Source of the DNA: Fulvivirga aurantia
Lineage (GTDB): Bacteria > Bacteroidota > Bacteroidia > Cytophagales > Cyclobacteriaceae
Assembly (NCBI RefSeq): GCF_009711475.1
Contig: NZ_SMMD01000868.1
Span: forward strand, 1-12,281
DNA: 12,281 nt
Direction: 5' to 3'
The notes beneath the pieces are model-generated. The model was not told where the DNA came from. It saw only the letters and a program-made list of their open reading frames with translations, and searched no databases. Below, piece by piece: positions 3,850 through 9,192 of the stretch. Position 1 is the stretch's first letter. Every line of letters starts with the position of its first letter. The position numbers and the translations under genes are program-made.

Positions 3850-4947
3850 TTACGACCCGTTGCTATTCATGATTTTATTTTGATGATTGATTGACTCCTG
3901 ATGTACAGCCTTAAAATACTTCTCAATAAACTCACGGCTTAGGCCAAGCTTTTCTCCTTTACTACACACCTGATTTAGGATTTCTTCCCATCTTTTGGTT
4001 TGAAGAATGGTAAGGTTGTTGGCTTTTTTATAGAGTCCAATGTCTTCGGCCACTGTCATGCGTTGTGCAAATAAAGAGAGTATTTCATCATCAAATTTAT
4101 CGATTTGGCTTCTTAAAGATTCCAGTTCTCCCGGTATAGCATCTTTAACACTTACATCTTCTCTTAGCACAAATTTGTCGATCATTTCAGCAAGCTTTTG
4201 AGGAGTGACTTGCTGCTTTGCATCGCTCCAAGCCTTGTCAGGGTTAATGTGGGACTCGATCATCAGGCCATCATAATTGAGGTCTAGTGCTTCCTGAGCT
4301 ACTTCGTAGAGCAACTCTCTATTGCCGGCAATATGGCTAGGGTCACAGATTATGGGTATGCCAGGAATTTGTCTCCTTAACTCAATAGGGAGCTGCCATT
4401 GAGGCGTGTTTCGATATTTTTTCTCACCGTATTTGGCAAACCCTCGGTGTATCGCACCTACCTGACTTATACCGGCCTGGTGAATTCTCTCAATAGCTCC
4501 AATCCAAAGCTGTAAATCAGCATTGATCGGATTTTTGATAAGAACTGGGATGTCAACACCCTTTAGCGCATCGGCTATCTCCTGTACAGAAAATGGGTTA
4601 ACAGTGGTGCGAGCGCCTATCCATAAAATGTCGACACCATGCTTTAAAGCCTCAAGCACGTGTTGTGCATTTGCCACTTCTACAGTTATCGGCAACCCGG
4701 TTACGGCCTTAGCTTTTCTAAGCCATTTAAGTCCCTCAGCACCAACCCCTTCGAAGTTGTTGGGTCTCGTGCGTGGCTTCCAAATACCTGCTCTTAAAAT
4801 ATCTACTTTATTGGTTGCTGCGAGTTGTTTACAGGTTTCTATTACCTGTTCCTCTGTTTCAGCACTGCATGGGCCACTGATAATTACCGGTCTGTCCAGG
4901 TTAGGAAGCCAAGTGTTGAGGGGTGAAATATCTGTTAATTTACTCAT
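3850..4947 (-). CDS. Bifunctional 3-deoxy-7-phosphoheptulonate synthase / chorismate mutase type II
   Basis: The N-terminal part (about 18-262) is a DAHP synthase of the KDO8P-synthase-like group, which joins phosphoenolpyruvate and erythrose 4-phosphate at the entry to the shikimate pathway. Visible motifs are SGPCSAE with metal-ligand Cys27, KPRTRP (57-62), IKNP (137-140), DPSHIAG with His205 and MIESH with Glu231. Residues about 274-356 form an AroQ-type helical chorismate mutase (LRSQIDKFDDEILSLFAQR, then IGLYKK), converting chorismate to prephenate. The fusion puts the first pathway step and the Phe/Tyr branch step on one polypeptide; in related fusions the mutase domain also helps prephenate or aromatic products inhibit the synthase (established for the family, not shown here). 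It is separated from tyrA by only 4 bases, so it is translationally linked to the pheA-led operon. Confidence 0.95.
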   Translation of the reverse strand: MSKLTDISPLNTWLPNLDRPVIISGPCSAETEEQVIETCKQLAATNKVDILRAGIWKPRTRPNNFEGVGAEGLKWLRKAKAVTGLPITVEVANAQHVLEALKHGVDILWIGARTTVNPFSVQEIADALKGVDIPVLIKNPINADLQLWIGAIERIHQAGISQVGAIHRGFAKYGEKKYRNTPQWQLPIELRRQIPGIPIICDPSHIAGNRELLYEVAQEALDLNYDGLMIESHINPDKAWSDAKQQVTPQKLAEMIDKFVLREDVSVKDAIPGELESLRSQIDKFDDEILSLFAQRMTVAEDIGLYKKANNLTILQTKRWEEILNQVCSKGEKLGLSREFIEKYFKAVHQESINHQNKIMNSNGS

Positions 4948-4951
4948 GGTC

Positions 4952-5833
4952 TTAATTGTTTAAAGTGGCTGCCTGATTTTTCAATTCTATCCCATCCAAT
5001 ATTCTTTTGATTTGATTCGACTCTTCAATAGCCCGATAAGTCTCACCGGTATTTCCGCTCTCAATCATCTGCTTAAGGTCATTGAGTTTGTCTATAAATG
5101 AATCGATGGCACTGGTTAGGTTTTCTTTATTTTCGTTAAAAATGGGTGTCCACATTGCGGGAGAACTTTTCGCCAATCTTACAGTAGAAGCGAAACCACT
5201 ACCAGCCATATTGAAAATGCTTTTTTCGTCTTTTTCAATATCTAAAACAGTAAGTCCTAATGTAAAAGAGGTGATGTGAGAAAGATGAGAAACATAAGCA
5301 ATGTGACGGTCATGCTCTTCTGCTTCCATATGTATATTCTTCATTTTCAATGCTTCGAATACTTCTGTAGCGGTTTTAAGCGCTGATTTACTGCTCTTGT
5401 CTACATCAGTCATGATGTTGATTTTACCATCGAAAAGGTAGTAGTGCGCAGCTTCAGGGCCACTATATTCAGTTCCGGCAATCGGATGGCAGGCCACAAA
5501 TTGAGACCGCTTTTCGTGAGCATCTGCTACTTTACATATATTGGCCTTTATCGACCCGACATCCAGTACGATCGCGTTTTCTTTAATATGATCTAATACC
5601 TCTTTCAAAAGCGATGGCGCCTGATCTACTGGAACTGCTATGATAACGAGATCGGCCTTCTGCGCTGATTCTTTAAGATCTAGTACCTCATCAATAATAC
5701 CTAGTTCTAAGGCCTTGGCTATATGCTCGGTGTTGCTATCAACACCAATTATCTGTTGGGCTATGTTTCTTTTTTTAAGGTCCAGCGCCATAGAGCCCCC
5801 TATTAGTCCTGTACCTATTACTGTGATAATCAT
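4952..5833 (-). CDS. tyrA: Prephenate dehydrogenase (tyrosine branch)
   Basis: This 293-residue TyrA-family enzyme oxidatively decarboxylates prephenate to 4-hydroxyphenylpyruvate. The N-terminal Rossmann fold has GTGLIGGS (7-14) with Asp32 at the end of the second strand, which favours NAD over NADP. ACHPIAGTEYSGP (115-126) contains the catalytic His116, HDRHIAYVSHLSH (174-186) is the conserved helical segment, and STVRLAKSSPAMW contains Arg219, the substrate-binding arginine position. There is no C-terminal ACT domain, so tyrosine feedback through such a domain is not expected. The gene starts 10 bases after the aminotransferase stop and ends 4 bases before the DAHP synthase/mutase ATG. Its prephenate substrate is made by the mutase domain encoded next to it. 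Arogenate activity cannot be excluded from sequence. Confidence 0.92.
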   Translation of the reverse strand: MIITVIGTGLIGGSMALDLKKRNIAQQIIGVDSNTEHIAKALELGIIDEVLDLKESAQKADLVIIAVPVDQAPSLLKEVLDHIKENAIVLDVGSIKANICKVADAHEKRSQFVACHPIAGTEYSGPEAAHYYLFDGKINIMTDVDKSSKSALKTATEVFEALKMKNIHMEAEEHDRHIAYVSHLSHITSFTLGLTVLDIEKDEKSIFNMAGSGFASTVRLAKSSPAMWTPIFNENKENLTSAIDSFIDKLNDLKQMIESGNTGETYRAIEESNQIKRILDGIELKNQAATLNN

Positions 5834-5843
5834 ATTTTTATGT

Positions 5844-6992
5844 TTAAATTTTAATTCTATTAAGTGCTTCTTCTAATCTTGTCTTTGGTGTGCAAAGGGA
5901 GATACGTACATACCTTTGTCCGTTACTACCGAAAATAAATCCGGGAGTTATGAATATTTGGTATTTGATGAGTAGTTCATCTACCCACTGGGCTACATCA
6001 TTGACAGAGTCTGGTGCTTTGGCCCATACGAACATGCCGACCTGATCATTTTTGTACTCGCATTTCAGTTGATCAAGTACTTGCCAGACAATCTCCCTAC
6101 GTTGGCTGTAGGTATCGTTTACTTTCTTAAACCACATTTGGCCTTGTTTTAACGCGACAATTGCAGCCTCCTGAATAGGTAAAAACATACCGGAATCCAC
6201 ATTACTTTTAAAACGAAGAATATTGTTGATGTGCTCTTCATGAGCGGCAATCACCCCCATACGCCAGCCAGCCATATTATGTGATTTGCTCAATGAGTTT
6301 AGTTCGAGTATATACGGGCTTAGACCACTTGATAATAGGCTCTGAGGATTTTTATTCAGAATAAAACTGTAAGGATTGTCGTTACAGATCAGAATATTGT
6401 GTTTCTCGCCAAAGGCAGCCAATGACCTGAAAAGCTCGTCACTGGCTTGTGTTCCGGTTGGCATGTTGGGGTAGTTGACCCACATCAGCTTCACTTTAGA
6501 TAAGTCGTGTTGCTCGATCTCTTCTAAGTTGGGCATCCAATTATTGTCGGCCGTTAGGTTATAATTTACTACAGCCGCTCCCGCAAGCTGAGTGGCAGCA
6601 GCATAGGCAGGATACCCTGGATTAGGAACCAACGCTACATCACCAGCCTGCAAGTAAGTCATGGAGATGTGAACAATGCCTTCTTTACTGCCAATAAGAG
6701 GGAGTATCTCAGTTTCGGCATTTAATTTTACATGGTAACTCCGTTTGTACCATTCTGCGTAAGCTTCACGCAAGCCAGGTATACCTTTATAACTTTGGTA
6801 GCCATGATTGCCCGGCTCAGATGCGCTGGTGGCAAGTCGATGAATTACCTTTTTAGGCGGAGGTAGATCGGGGCTACCTATACCAAGGTTTATGATATCT
6901 TTTCCTGTAGCCTTGAGTTGAGCTATCTCTCGGAGCTTTTGAGAAAAATAGTATTCCTGTATTGCATTAAGTCTGTCTGCGGGCTTAATCAT
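5844..6992 (-). CDS. PLP-dependent aminotransferase, class I/II, probably aromatic
   Basis: This 382-residue fold-type I aminotransferase has NYPNMPTG (173-180) with Asn176, NDNPYSF with Asp205 contacting the pyridine nitrogen, SLSKSHNMAGWRMG with the PLP lysine Lys236 and Arg239-region helix, and YVRISLC with Arg363, the substrate carboxylate clamp. Overall it resembles the family annotated as LL-diaminopimelate or aspartate/aromatic aminotransferases. Sitting between prephenate dehydratase and prephenate dehydrogenase, its natural job is most likely transamination of phenylpyruvate and 4-hydroxyphenylpyruvate to Phe and Tyr (inference from context). The ATG overlaps the pheA stop by 4 bases (ATGA), indicating coupled translation. 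A broader amino-donor range or action on diaminopimelate-pathway intermediates remains possible. Confidence 0.88.
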   Translation of the reverse strand: MIKPADRLNAIQEYYFSQKLREIAQLKATGKDIINLGIGSPDLPPPKKVIHRLATSASEPGNHGYQSYKGIPGLREAYAEWYKRSYHVKLNAETEILPLIGSKEGIVHISMTYLQAGDVALVPNPGYPAYAAATQLAGAAVVNYNLTADNNWMPNLEEIEQHDLSKVKLMWVNYPNMPTGTQASDELFRSLAAFGEKHNILICNDNPYSFILNKNPQSLLSSGLSPYILELNSLSKSHNMAGWRMGVIAAHEEHINNILRFKSNVDSGMFLPIQEAAIVALKQGQMWFKKVNDTYSQRREIVWQVLDQLKCEYKNDQVGMFVWAKAPDSVNDVAQWVDELLIKYQIFITPGFIFGSNGQRYVRISLCTPKTRLEEALNRIKI

Positions 6993-7828
6993 TTTCTTCC
7001 ATTTTTATAAATTCCTAATACTCTTAATCCCGTGCATAGTGTAGCTAGTGCTGTTTTTAAAGATTCAAATTGTTCCATACTGTCAAACTCAAGGTCTAGA
7101 TGAAAACTATATTCCCACTCAGTGACTACATGAGGTATCGATTGTATTTTCGAAATATTGATATGATGCCCGGTAATCACCTGCATCACATTTGACAAGC
7201 TGCCAGGGCGATGTGGGAGGGTAAATCGCACTGAAGCCTTGTTAGCGTCATGCAATTGAATAGGTGTAGTCGATAAAATGAGAAAGCGTGTGTAATTGTT
7301 GCTTACCGTTTCTATGTTGCGTTCGATGATCTCAAGTTCGTAAAGGTTGGCAGCAGTACTACTGGCTATAGCAGCGATAGAGTGATCTCTTATTTCAGCT
7401 ATATTTTTTGCGCTTAATGCTGTGTCTGCAGTTTCTATCAACCTCATGCGTGGGTGTTGTTTGAGAAAATCAGCGCACTGTAGCAAGGCCATGGGGTGAG
7501 AGTGTACTTCTCTGATATGGCTAAGCTTTGTACCTGGCAGAGCCATCAGGTGCTGCTCTATTTTGATGTATACCTCACCAACAATGTGCAACTCAGATTG
7601 CTCCAAAAGCGCATAATTTGGTAAAATACTACCTGCGATAGAGTTTTCTATCGCCATTACTCCTTCATTTGCATTGCCGTTTTGAGTGTTAACGATCAAC
7701 TGATTAAAAGTAGACATGGGAACAATCTCAATATGCTCAGGGTAATGCTTTTGTGCAGCTTCCTGATGAAAACTACCTTCATAACCTTGAATGGCTATTT
7801 TTAACTTTTTACCTGTTATCACTTCCAT
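6989..7828 (-). CDS. pheA: Prephenate dehydratase with C-terminal ACT domain
   Basis: PheA converts prephenate to phenylpyruvate, committing carbon to phenylalanine. The 279-residue protein has a catalytic region (about 9-185) starting KIAIQGYEGSFHQEAA, with MAIENSIAGSI (58-68) and the hallmark NNYTRF (177-182), whose Thr180 is essential in the family. An ACT regulatory domain (about 198-275) follows; the positions of the usual GALV and ESRP effector motifs read PGSLSNVM and KIQSIP, so Phe feedback is likely but the motifs diverge. There is no fused chorismate mutase, unlike E. coli PheA; that activity is on the DAHP synthase of the same operon. It is the first gene of the operon, its ATG lying 11 bases after the U tract of a terminator preceded by two Phe/Tyr leader peptides, so its transcription is predicted to respond to Phe and Tyr supply. 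Confidence 0.95.
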   Translation of the reverse strand: MEVITGKKLKIAIQGYEGSFHQEAAQKHYPEHIEIVPMSTFNQLIVNTQNGNANEGVMAIENSIAGSILPNYALLEQSELHIVGEVYIKIEQHLMALPGTKLSHIREVHSHPMALLQCADFLKQHPRMRLIETADTALSAKNIAEIRDHSIAAIASSTAANLYELEIIERNIETVSNNYTRFLILSTTPIQLHDANKASVRFTLPHRPGSLSNVMQVITGHHINISKIQSIPHVVTEWEYSFHLDLEFDSMEQFESLKTALATLCTGLRVLGIYKNGRK

Positions 7829-7839
7829 AATTATTGAGC

Positions 7840-7871
7840 AAAAAAAAAGAGTCCCCTTTCGGAGGACTCTT
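7840..7871 (-). terminator. Attenuator 2 terminator, immediately before pheA
   Basis: Read on the minus strand: AAGAGTCC, a bulged T, CC, the GNRA tetraloop GAAA, then GG and GGACTCTT, giving an 8-bp plus 2-bp stem (7871-7861 with 7856-7847), followed by a run of nine T (7848-7840, its first two in the stem). This is a strong intrinsic terminator placed 11 bases before the pheA start codon, where no minus-strand coding region ends except the leader peptide. Its 5' arm is the exact partner of the antiterminator strand in leader 2. Its place ahead of the operon, rather than after it, marks it as an attenuator. Confidence 0.88.
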
Positions 7872-7909
7872 GTGGTTAAATTCGTTTAAAGAATATCACA
7901 TAGTCCTCC
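7861..7909 (-). promoter_or_regulatory. Attenuator 2 antiterminator pairing
   Basis: On the minus strand GGAGGACT (7909-7902) is exactly complementary over 8 bases to AGTCCTCC (7868-7861), which is the 5' arm of the terminator just upstream of pheA. Both pairings cannot exist together. The upstream strand lies in codons 22-24 of leader peptide 2 (numbered from the ATG at 7973), 9 bases after the last Tyr codon. A ribosome stalled on the Phe/Tyr run would leave it free to pair, while one reaching the stop codon would cover it and let the terminator form. A weaker earlier partner, AGTCC in leader codons 6-7 (7958-7954), could pair with its 3' half as a region 1:2 structure. Confidence 0.85.
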
Positions 7910-7988
7910 TGCTTCTTTTGTAATAAAAGAAGTAATAAAAGTTGTAGAAGAATGGACTTACGGTATTCATCATTAAAAGCAAAAGCAT
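7896..7988 (-). CDS. Phe/Tyr leader peptide 2 of the aromatic operon
   Basis: This short minus-strand ORF ends at TGA (7898-7896). From the ATG at 7973 it encodes 25 residues, and residues 8-18 read FFYNFYYFFYY: five Phe and five Tyr in eleven. The tail KRSRRTM carries the antiterminator strand. Three in-frame starts exist: 7988 (30 residues, adding MLLLL), 7973 and 7970. The 7988 ATG is preceded at 8-base spacing by AGGAGG in the 3' arm of the first terminator, so I give the longest form; 7973 is the alternative. As in the classical E. coli pheA leader, the product is expected to be dispensable and its translation to act as a sensor of charged tRNA-Phe and tRNA-Tyr for the downstream terminator. 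The run of aromatic codons, the position and the RNA structures together make this convincing. Confidence 0.88.
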   Translation of the reverse strand: MLLLLMMNTVSPFFYNFYYFFYYKRSRRTM

Positions 7989-8018
7989 AAAAAAAGCCTC
8001 CTGATTTTCAGGAGGCTT
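7989..8018 (-). terminator. Attenuator 1 terminator, upstream of leader peptide 2
   Basis: Read on the minus strand, AAGCCTCCTGA (8018-8008), loop AAA and TCAGGAGGCTT (8004-7994) form a perfect 11-bp stem, followed by a T run (7995-7989, its first two in the stem). No minus-strand protein gene ends upstream, because the neighbouring gene at 8209 is divergent. On the plus strand the hairpin is not followed by a T tract and has no plus-strand gene before it. It therefore works on the pheA leader transcript. The 3' arm contains AGGAGG (8002-7997) in possible ribosome-binding position for leader peptide 2. Confidence 0.87.
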
Positions 8019-8048
8019 AGTAAATATTTTAGATACAGATAGCCTCCT
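8010..8048 (-). promoter_or_regulatory. Attenuator 1 antiterminator pairing
   Basis: On the minus strand AGGAGGCT (8048-8041), beginning 4 bases after the leader-1 stop codon, is exactly complementary over 8 bases to AGCCTCCT (8017-8010), the 5' arm of the 11-bp terminator downstream, with a 23-base loop. A ribosome waiting at the stop codon would cover the first strand and favour termination; a ribosome stalled on the Phe/Tyr codons would leave it free. A small competing hairpin, CTTTAA-GTAA-TTAAAG (8062-8047), spans the stop codon and could hold the strand closed when no ribosome is present, playing the part of a region 1:2 structure. Confidence 0.83.
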
Positions 8049-8052
8049 TTAA

Positions 8053-8112
8053 TTACTTAAAGTAAAAAAAGTAAAAACTATAATTGGCTGTATTAGATTT
8101 CTGCGTTTTCAT
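8053..8112 (-). CDS. Phe/Tyr leader peptide 1 of the aromatic operon
   Basis: This 19-residue minus-strand ORF runs from the ATG at 8112 to TAA (8055-8053) and reads MKTQKSNTANYSFYFFYFK. Four Phe and three Tyr fall in the last nine residues. The N-terminal half is polar and has no aromatic codons, so stalling would happen only near the end, close to the antiterminator strand that starts just after the stop. It lies upstream of its own terminator and of the second leader. The sensing role is inferred from codon content and from RNA elements that match the classical arrangement. No Shine-Dalgarno sequence precedes it, as is usual in Bacteroidota. The protein product itself probably has no function. 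Confidence 0.85.
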   Translation of the reverse strand: MKTQKSNTANYSFYFFYFK

Positions 8113-8154
8113 TAATGTCTAAAGATTGATTAAAAATTTTTATTTGACAAAAGG

Positions 8155-8185
8155 TTTTTGATAAAATTTACGGGTGTGTAATTTG
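8155..8185 (+). promoter_or_regulatory. Weak promoter candidate for the DUF1028 gene
   Basis: On the plus strand TTTTTG (8155-8160) is followed after 18 bases by TAATTTG (8179-8185), one base short of the TAnnTTTG element. Initiation near 8190 would leave about 20 untranslated bases before the ATG at 8209. The spacing and match are both imperfect. It overlaps the minus-strand operon promoter candidate. Confidence 0.25.
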
Positions 8186-8208: not shown

Positions 8209-9192
8209 ATGAAGCATCTAATTCTAGTTCTTTTGCTTGTAATCAGTGTTACTGGTCAGGCTCAATTATATAAAGTAGAAAGTCCATTTGCCCACACTTA
8301 CTCTATTGTGGCCCGTGATGAGGTCACAGGAGAAATGGCTGTAGCCGTACAGAGCCACTGGTTTAATGTAGGAGGGGTTGTAAGCTGGGGTGAGGCAGGA
8401 GTAGGTGTAGTGGCAACGCAATCTTTCGTGAATAAATCTTTTGGTATAAGAGGGCTCGCACTTATAAAAGAGGGCAAGACAGCTCAGGAGGCTTTGGATA
8501 TATTATTAGCTACAGATGAAGGCCGCGCTGTAAGACAGGTGTCAATCTTAGATGCTGAAGGAAATGTAGCCACACACACGGGGGAGAGTTGTATTAAATA
8601 TGCGGGACATATAAAAGGAGACAACTATTCTGTACAGGCAAATATGATGCTTACCGATGAAGTATGGCCTGCCATGGCCAATGCCTATGAGCTAAACTAC
8701 GGTTTACCGCTACCGGAACGCATGCTGGCCGTGCTAGAAGCAGCAGAAAAGGCAGGTGGAGATATCAGAGGAAAACAATCAGCTGCATTATTGGTTGTGC
8801 AAGGAGAGAAACTAGAAAATATCTGGGATGACCCGATGATTGATTTAAGTGTTGAGGATGCTGAAAACCCGCTGGAGGAGTTAAAAAGGTTGCTTAAAGT
8901 GTATAGGGCTTATGAGCACATGAATAATGGCGATCTTGCTGTAGAACATGGAGACATGCAAAAGGCTATGGCTGCCTATGGTTCGGCTCAAAAAATGTTT
9001 CCAAATAATCTGGAAATGCAGTATTGGACAGCCATAACTCTAGCCAACCAGGGGGAGCTGGAAAAAGCAAAACCTATTTTAAAAAGAGTTTTTGCAAGAG
9101 ATGAAAACTGGCGCGAACTTACCAGACGACTGCCCGAAGCAGGTTTGCTAGAGTTGAGCGAAGAAGAGATCGATCAGTTACTCGCACTTTGA
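8209..9192 (+). CDS. Secreted DUF1028 family protein (Ntn-hydrolase-like) with TPR-like C-terminus
   Basis: The 327-residue product begins with a signal peptide (MKHLILVLLLVISVTGQA, probable cleavage near residue 18), so it is exported to the periplasm or beyond. Residues about 24-220 match the DUF1028 family: HTYSIVARDEVTGEMAVAVQSHW, GVGVVATQSFVN, ILDAEGNVATHTGESC and GDIRGKQSAALLVV. That family is predicted to have an Ntn-hydrolase fold; no enzymatic reaction is firmly assigned as far as I know. Residues about 225-300 are helical and repeat-like (AVEHGDMQKAMAAYGSAQKMFPNN, then AITLANQGELEKAKPILKRVF), resembling one or two TPR units, after which the chain ends in a short acidic helix. It is divergent from the aromatic operon and 76 bases upstream of a histidine kinase; no functional link is evident. 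Confidence 0.85.
   Translation: MKHLILVLLLVISVTGQAQLYKVESPFAHTYSIVARDEVTGEMAVAVQSHWFNVGGVVSWGEAGVGVVATQSFVNKSFGIRGLALIKEGKTAQEALDILLATDEGRAVRQVSILDAEGNVATHTGESCIKYAGHIKGDNYSVQANMMLTDEVWPAMANAYELNYGLPLPERMLAVLEAAEKAGGDIRGKQSAALLVVQGEKLENIWDDPMIDLSVEDAENPLEELKRLLKVYRAYEHMNNGDLAVEHGDMQKAMAAYGSAQKMFPNNLEMQYWTAITLANQGELEKAKPILKRVFARDENWRELTRRLPEAGLLELSEEEIDQLLAL

Follow-up and report, generated by a model that had tools for sequence, protein, structure and literature searches.

In biosynthetic operons, the textbook ribosome-mediated attenuator is a single switch. The leader of E. coli pheA resembles the locus described here in its Phe-rich leader peptide, its alternative 2:3 and 3:4 hairpins, its intrinsic terminator and the prephenate dehydratase operon that follows, but it consists of one unit with Phe codons only, whereas the window (the whole 12,281-nt stretch of DNA that was analysed) has two units, each with Phe and Tyr codons. 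Tandem T-boxes and tandem riboswitches also place two sensors that terminate transcription one after the other on the same transcript; there, unlike here, the RNA itself binds the tRNA or ligand, and neither a leader peptide nor a ribosome is involved. The metE riboswitches of B. clausii are one tandem example, mentioned in the accessible part of PMC3641672.

The nearest precedent that we found is the Salmonella mgtCBR operon, for which the accessible part of the same paper describes two short leader ORFs in series on one mRNA, each with its own attenuator (PMC3641672). It differs in that ATP acts via mgtM and proline via mgtP, the stem-loops do not resemble intrinsic terminators and the operon is not biosynthetic (PMC3641672, same part). 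Two leader peptides also precede one gene in ermB, but according to the excerpt available the attenuation there is translational, is induced by erythromycin and does not sense charged tRNA (PMC8274638). The same gene and phylum as in the window are represented by a structured 5' element without an Rfam match, found before pheA in Flavobacterium psychrophilum and relatives and also before hisG in Flavobacteriaceae; the same authors report clues of leader-peptide attenuation before amino-acid operons (PMC9723704, in part). The accessible text of that paper does not mention a tandem, and the Flavobacterium loci among the best 80 of 579 matches in our own sample have single units. With the Rfam leader families (Phe_leader, Trp_leader and others) we obtained no match at gathering score, either in the window or in 11 loci.

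An earlier note on this DNA knew of no description of the doubled arrangement. Within a search of open-access full texts this stands, in that no doubled leader attenuator with the same signal was found described (the word 'tandem' is absent from PMC4833913 and PMC1262725; the survey of Lopatovskaya et al. 2010 lies outside that scope). Tandem leader-ORF attenuators as such are known, from what the accessible part of the Salmonella mgtCBR paper describes. Classical ribosome-mediated attenuation doubled on one signal is the best interpretation available for the locus.

Two attenuator units upstream of pheA

A tandem pair of attenuators, each complete, occupies the minus strand from 8112 to 7840, upstream of a pheA-aminotransferase-tyrA-DAHP synthase/chorismate mutase operon. 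The order of leader, antiterminator and terminator, twice over, had been read from the letters alone and was confirmed, with every part in its place:

8053..8112, minus strand: leader peptide 1, MKTQKSNTANYSFYFFYFK and stop; Phe/Tyr run, the stop preceding region 2
8041..8048, minus strand: AGGAGGCT, region 2 of attenuator 1; its antiterminator partner is the 5' arm of terminator 1
7989..8018, minus strand: terminator 1 (AAGCCTCCTGA-AAA-TCAGGAGGCTT plus T tract); stem 8018-7994, T run 7995-7989
7896..7973, minus strand: leader peptide 2, M(M)NTVSPFFYNFYYFFYYKRSRRTM and stop; Phe/Tyr run, the ORF extending through region 2
7902..7909, minus strand: GGAGGACT, region 2 of attenuator 2; lies within leader 2
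7840..7871, minus strand: terminator 2 (AAGAGTCCTC-CGAAA-GGGGACTCTT plus T tract); stem 7871-7847, T run 7848-7840
6989..7828, minus strand: pheA, prephenate dehydratase, with a PDT domain and a weak ACT match; ATG at 7828; the first gene controlled
5844..6992, minus strand: class I/II aminotransferase, presumed aromatic
4952..5833, minus strand: prephenate dehydrogenase (tyrA)
3850..4947, minus strand: DAHP synthase fused to chorismate mutase

Leader 1 has 19 codons, from the ATG at 8112 to the stop at 8055-8053, and seven of the eight residues in its densest stretch are Phe or Tyr. Leader 2 runs from the ATG at 7973 (or 7970) to the stop at 7898-7896. Phe and Tyr codons number 4 + 3 in leader 1 and 5 + 5 in leader 2, and neither contains Trp. 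In attenuator 1, AGGAGGCT (8048-8041) pairs exactly over 8 bp with AGCCTCCT inside terminator 1, and region 2 starts 13 nt downstream of where the last Phe codon begins. In attenuator 2, GGAGGACT (7909-7902) likewise pairs exactly over 8 bp with AGTCCTCC inside terminator 2, with region 2 about 14 nt downstream of where the last Tyr codon begins. Classical attenuators have a 1:2 protector pairing, and the window units are alike in this: the minimum-energy fold of each has region 2 paired with sequence that codes for the leader. Both leader regions fold more stably than shuffles (z of -4.5 for leader 1 and -3.5 for leader 2). The claim that one plan is followed twice holds for the exact 8-bp switch in each unit and fails for the leaders themselves, since leader 1 ends before region 2 whilst leader 2 would be translated through it.

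The operon under the leaders makes the amino acids that would be sensed (Phe, Tyr). Its gene order is identical in 13/13 tandem loci that have enough downstream sequence, and among single-leader loci the three further genes all lie within 4 kb in 46/55. In the window, murB comes next after the DAHP synthase-chorismate mutase gene, on the same strand. On the other side, about 97 nt from leader 1, a divergent gene for a DUF1028 protein with TPR matches occupies 8209-9192 on the plus strand.

The best explanation of the pair, and one that on this sequence evidence we consider highly probable, is a single transcript with two successive ribosome-mediated Phe/Tyr attenuators. RNA polymerase would start upstream of leader 1. 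With charged tRNA-Phe and tRNA-Tyr ample, a ribosome at the leader 1 stop would cover region 2, terminator 1 would form and transcription would end near 7989. With a ribosome stalled in the Phe/Tyr run, region 2, just past the ribosome, would capture the 5' arm of terminator 1 by pairing, giving readthrough. Leader 2 would repeat the test, with region 2 covered as the translating ribosome passes over it. Both codons occur in each leader, so that shortage of either Phe or Tyr should open both gates. Leakage in fed cells would be the product of two leak rates, which would widen the range; sensing would stay OR, not AND. Translation of the leaders, termination, the starvation response and the multiplied repression are the functions that we infer for these parts.

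Recurrence in Bacteroidota and apparent losses among relatives

For the chance test, a unit was counted as an ATG sORF spanning 12-45 codons in which 5 or more of 8 residues are Phe or Tyr, together with a terminator. Two units were found in 0/3000 dinucleotide shuffles of 7829-8180 (one unit in 8), in 0/2720 control windows of 620 nt taken from elsewhere in the fetched loci on both strands (one unit in 30), and in 0/195 reverse strands of the pheA upstream zone (one unit in 3/195). The leader region is AT-rich, as are Phe and Tyr codons, so that the pair might be chance AT-rich sequence next to two ordinary terminators; the shuffles and control windows tell against this, as does the recurrence of the tandem form in 50 of 232 different pheA upstream loci (best matches of each search), and we regard coincidence as vanishingly improbable.

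The 50 loci belong to several families, and the arrangement extends beyond this genome. In this class, pheA is commonly preceded by a single Phe/Tyr leader. The 232 loci comprise 192 (four same-DNA duplicates removed), L229 and 39 of 40 self-chosen stretches; the 50 tandems comprise 49 called by script and L229. The sample is non-random: it consists of the best 80 of 579 matches, the best matches of the other searches (at most 30 each) and 40 stretches hand-picked from tables. L123, L193, L084 and L124 were removed as duplicates of upstream DNA, and L181 has no upstream sequence. L003 and L068, which have TTG ORFs, were counted as single; L191 and L211, with two leader ORFs and one terminator each, are outside the 50 and were set as tandem in one tree. 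For L048 and L051 the first terminator given by the script was false, and real ones are present. L097 and L103 have <300 nt upstream, where a first unit could be missed.

Among loci from named genomes the tandem form occurs in 14/79 (among the best 80 of 579 matches), these being Chitinophaga (10/10), Hymenobacter (3/3) and one Saprospiraceae MAG. In the class sample it was found in 3/25 and 0/20 loci, in family f2 in 13/27 and in family f62 in 19/29 (in each case among the matches listed); a pheA match was present in 61/217 class-sample genomes, 62/80 f2 genomes and 55/80 f62 genomes. Family f2 is probably Hymenobacteraceae, because the pheA upstream DNA of its genome G635 is the same as that of Hymenobacter roseosalivarius (L070). 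Of 52 pheA loci read in the window's own family, f1, none but the window is tandem (1/6 in the genus, 0/27 and 0/19 in the rest of the family).

We compared promoter positions using TTG-N-TAnnTTTG, which we take to be the Bacteroidota-type consensus. The best match in the window (8/9) is 50 nt upstream of leader 1, and another, of 7/9, precedes leader 2, so the window taken alone is ambiguous. The second match would suit an arrangement that is not in series, in which leader 2 is transcribed from a promoter of its own and the short RNA or peptide made from unit 1 acts separately at other sites, as trpL RNA reportedly does in rhizobia; terminator 1 would close a complete short RNA. Across 50 tandem loci (L193 of the 50 duplicates L070), however, an 8-9/9 match precedes leader 1 in 39, whilst a match of at least 8/9 lies between the units in one, the stretch searched there being less long (some 50-70 nt in the loci listed, vs 90 nt). 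We consider separate transcription of this kind very improbable.

Close relatives lacking both ORFs and hairpins had been named beforehand as the finding that would refute the serial reading, and this refutation failed: five genus mates have a close pheA, with one unit each. G005 retains a leader-1-like unit only (MNATRTYTTYFSFYFFYFK, with a GGCCTCC terminator), and G002, G014, G001 and G006 a leader-2-like unit only (in G014 the peptide is MNNTFTIYFSYFFFYLQKKGWRYM, with region 2 within the ORF). In nine further genus mates there is only a 28-31% identical dehydratase, with no such leader before it. Six f2 loci (L202 and L204-L208) also have a leader-1-like unit only, for example MFSNRYFFGFYYFTPPA. 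Either unit can apparently be lost. That either is kept alone would also fit a state in which one unit regulates and the other is a relic en route to loss, the single-unit close relatives being the next stage. All parts and the exact 8-bp switches are nevertheless present in both window units, and both units are kept in 10/10 Chitinophaga loci, with pairings co-adapted in both; we think a relic unlikely.

The history of gain and loss was followed in trees of pheA. Starred branches join the genes of G002 and G001 to other rows and leave out the window, which itself has no secure position. The trees need 8 changes (48 rows) or 15 changes (197 rows) and do not separate gain from loss; the '1 change' of the tree group test is no evidence, because 27 ungrouped rows went uncounted. 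A repeat insertion behind the loss of leader 2 in G005 was considered and rejected, the 126-nt stretch concerned having one weak second match in that genome. Viral contigs contained no pheA relative. As a separate observation, nine f1 loci (L025, L027, L030, L031, L033, L034, L037, L039 and L040) and the f14 loci have a close pheA with no Phe/Tyr leader directly upstream; in these clades the leader may have been lost, or the operon may start elsewhere.

Co-adapted pairings and geometry

In MAFFT alignments (L048 left out of two of them) the f2 loci were misaligned at region 2, and a swap test therefore took the place of pair counting; in it, pairings within a locus are compared with those formed between loci (46 units for each leader; the single leader of G005 counted with leader 1; L044, L190 and L193 left out). 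With relatedness not controlled, own 2:3 and 3:4 pairings are stronger than between-locus pairings for both leaders; 0/5000 permutations were as good, and within lineages, again with relatedness not controlled, 0 to 36/5000. On this test and its sample, pairings are co-adapted within units. At the level of sequence, the parts of the pair, their co-adaptation and their recurrence are demonstrated. The reading of the locus as serial Phe/Tyr attenuators is supported by the shuffles, the control windows, the homologues, the co-adaptation, the promoter position in relatives and the operon content.

The groups differ in how specific the pairings are. The own 2:3 pairing exceeds that of a shuffled region 2 at z<-2 for leaders 1 and 2 in 9/10 and 9/10 Chitinophaga loci and in 18/20 and 15/20 loci of the f62 type; for f2 the counts are 11/19 for leader 2 and only 3/19 for leader 1, a weak signal. 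Measured against region 3 of the other unit in the same locus, the own 2:3 pairing is the stronger for leaders 1 and 2 in 10/10 and 9/10 (Chitinophaga), 16/19 and 19/19 (f2 type), and 15/20 and 14/20 (f62 plus L113). In the window this is so for leader 1 and not for leader 2: region 2 of attenuator 2 (7902-7910) scores -14.7 kcal/mol with region 3 of attenuator 1 (8008-8018) and -11.0 kcal/mol with its own.

Counted from where the last aromatic codon begins to the first base of region 2, group medians are 11-16 nt, for both leaders and for single leaders. A distance of 11-16 nt is about the reach of a stalled ribosome. Shuffles give the same medians, with a wider spread, for f2 leader 1 (16) and f62 leader 1 (15), where the spacing test says little. 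The asymmetry of the window leaders recurs, in that for the window, Chitinophaga and f2 types the stop codon lies, on the same count, at a median of 6-12 nt in leader 1 vs 24-33 nt in leader 2; the f62 leaders both end near the end of the run. The two f62 units of one locus are also more alike (mean score 20.8) than units from different loci (16.3), as would be expected from a later duplication; the corresponding scores are 16.2 vs 17.2 in Chitinophaga and 14.1 vs 15.0 in f2. In a dN/dS-style test, synonymous changes were not predominant in the leaders, which lends no support to translation (L044, L190 and L193 were left out of this comparison and of that of unit likeness).

A Trp codon lies near the end of the run in leader 1 of 10/10 Chitinophaga loci (L043, L044, L046-L049, L051, L057, L060 and L066) and in leader 2 of 0/10. 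It is a possible third aromatic input, and it raises the question of whether the two gates sense different things, each leader having its own aromatic set, for instance with Trp added in leader 1. The DAHP synthase of the operon catalyses the opening step of the pathway shared by Phe, Tyr and Trp, which would suit such a division. Against it, the window leaders lack Trp and both contain Phe and Tyr (4 + 3 and 5 + 5), and Trp occurs in 0/19 leader-1 peptides of the f2 type. Different signals for the two gates are rather doubtful on these grounds.

Leaders of trpE, ilvD and hisG

The trpE upstream region was readable in 41/42 loci; the window's own trpE lies at the contig edge. Two Trp-run leaders, each with a terminator, were found in 7/41 readable loci, one in 31 and none in 3. 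The doubled cases (WWW runs; L260, L261, L306, L309, L310, L311 and L330) are from G001, G002, G005, G006, G010 and G014, i.e. 6/14 genus mates, and from G181 of the same family; in G005 the leaders are MKKNFKNNAWWWHFLK and MRNKQILSWWWHLTIPTD. Not even one unit appeared in 1400 shuffles of trpE regions. An 8-9/9 promoter match precedes leader 1 in 7/7 of these pairs, and a match of at least 8/9 lies between the units in 0/7. Their own 2:3 pairings (-7.8/-6.1) and the swapped ones (-7.2/-5.9) score too close together to be told apart. All five genus mates with a single pheA unit have a doubled trpE leader.

Taking both operons together, we lean slightly towards a recurrent doubling of same-signal attenuators in aromatic operons of Bacteroidota, which takes two or more forms at pheA, arises separately at trpE within the genus of the window, and would act as a multiplicative two-gate switch; the pheA gates would be openable by shortage of Phe or of Tyr, with gate 1 of Chitinophaga perhaps also reading Trp. 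On this reading the pheA forms would include an asymmetric pair (window, Chitinophaga and Hymenobacter) and a pair of look-alike units (f62). A natural pair that recurs with the same amino acids in two operons would offer a clean test of what attenuation in series gains in range, sharpness and noise, and ready-made comparisons would come from species that have either half or both, and from those in which pheA or trpE has the doubled switch.

Doubling is neither confined to pheA nor general. One unit precedes ilvD in 1/11 loci, with L283, one of the 11, found to be without a unit on recheck. TGGTGGTGG occurs at 91 places in the window's genome, which is not above the reversed control, and no Trp leader was recognised among the 20 of these 91 that were read. 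Two His-run units precede hisG in 0/40 readable loci (of 41), and a single His-run leader with a terminator does so in 37/40 (L248-L259 and L335-L363).
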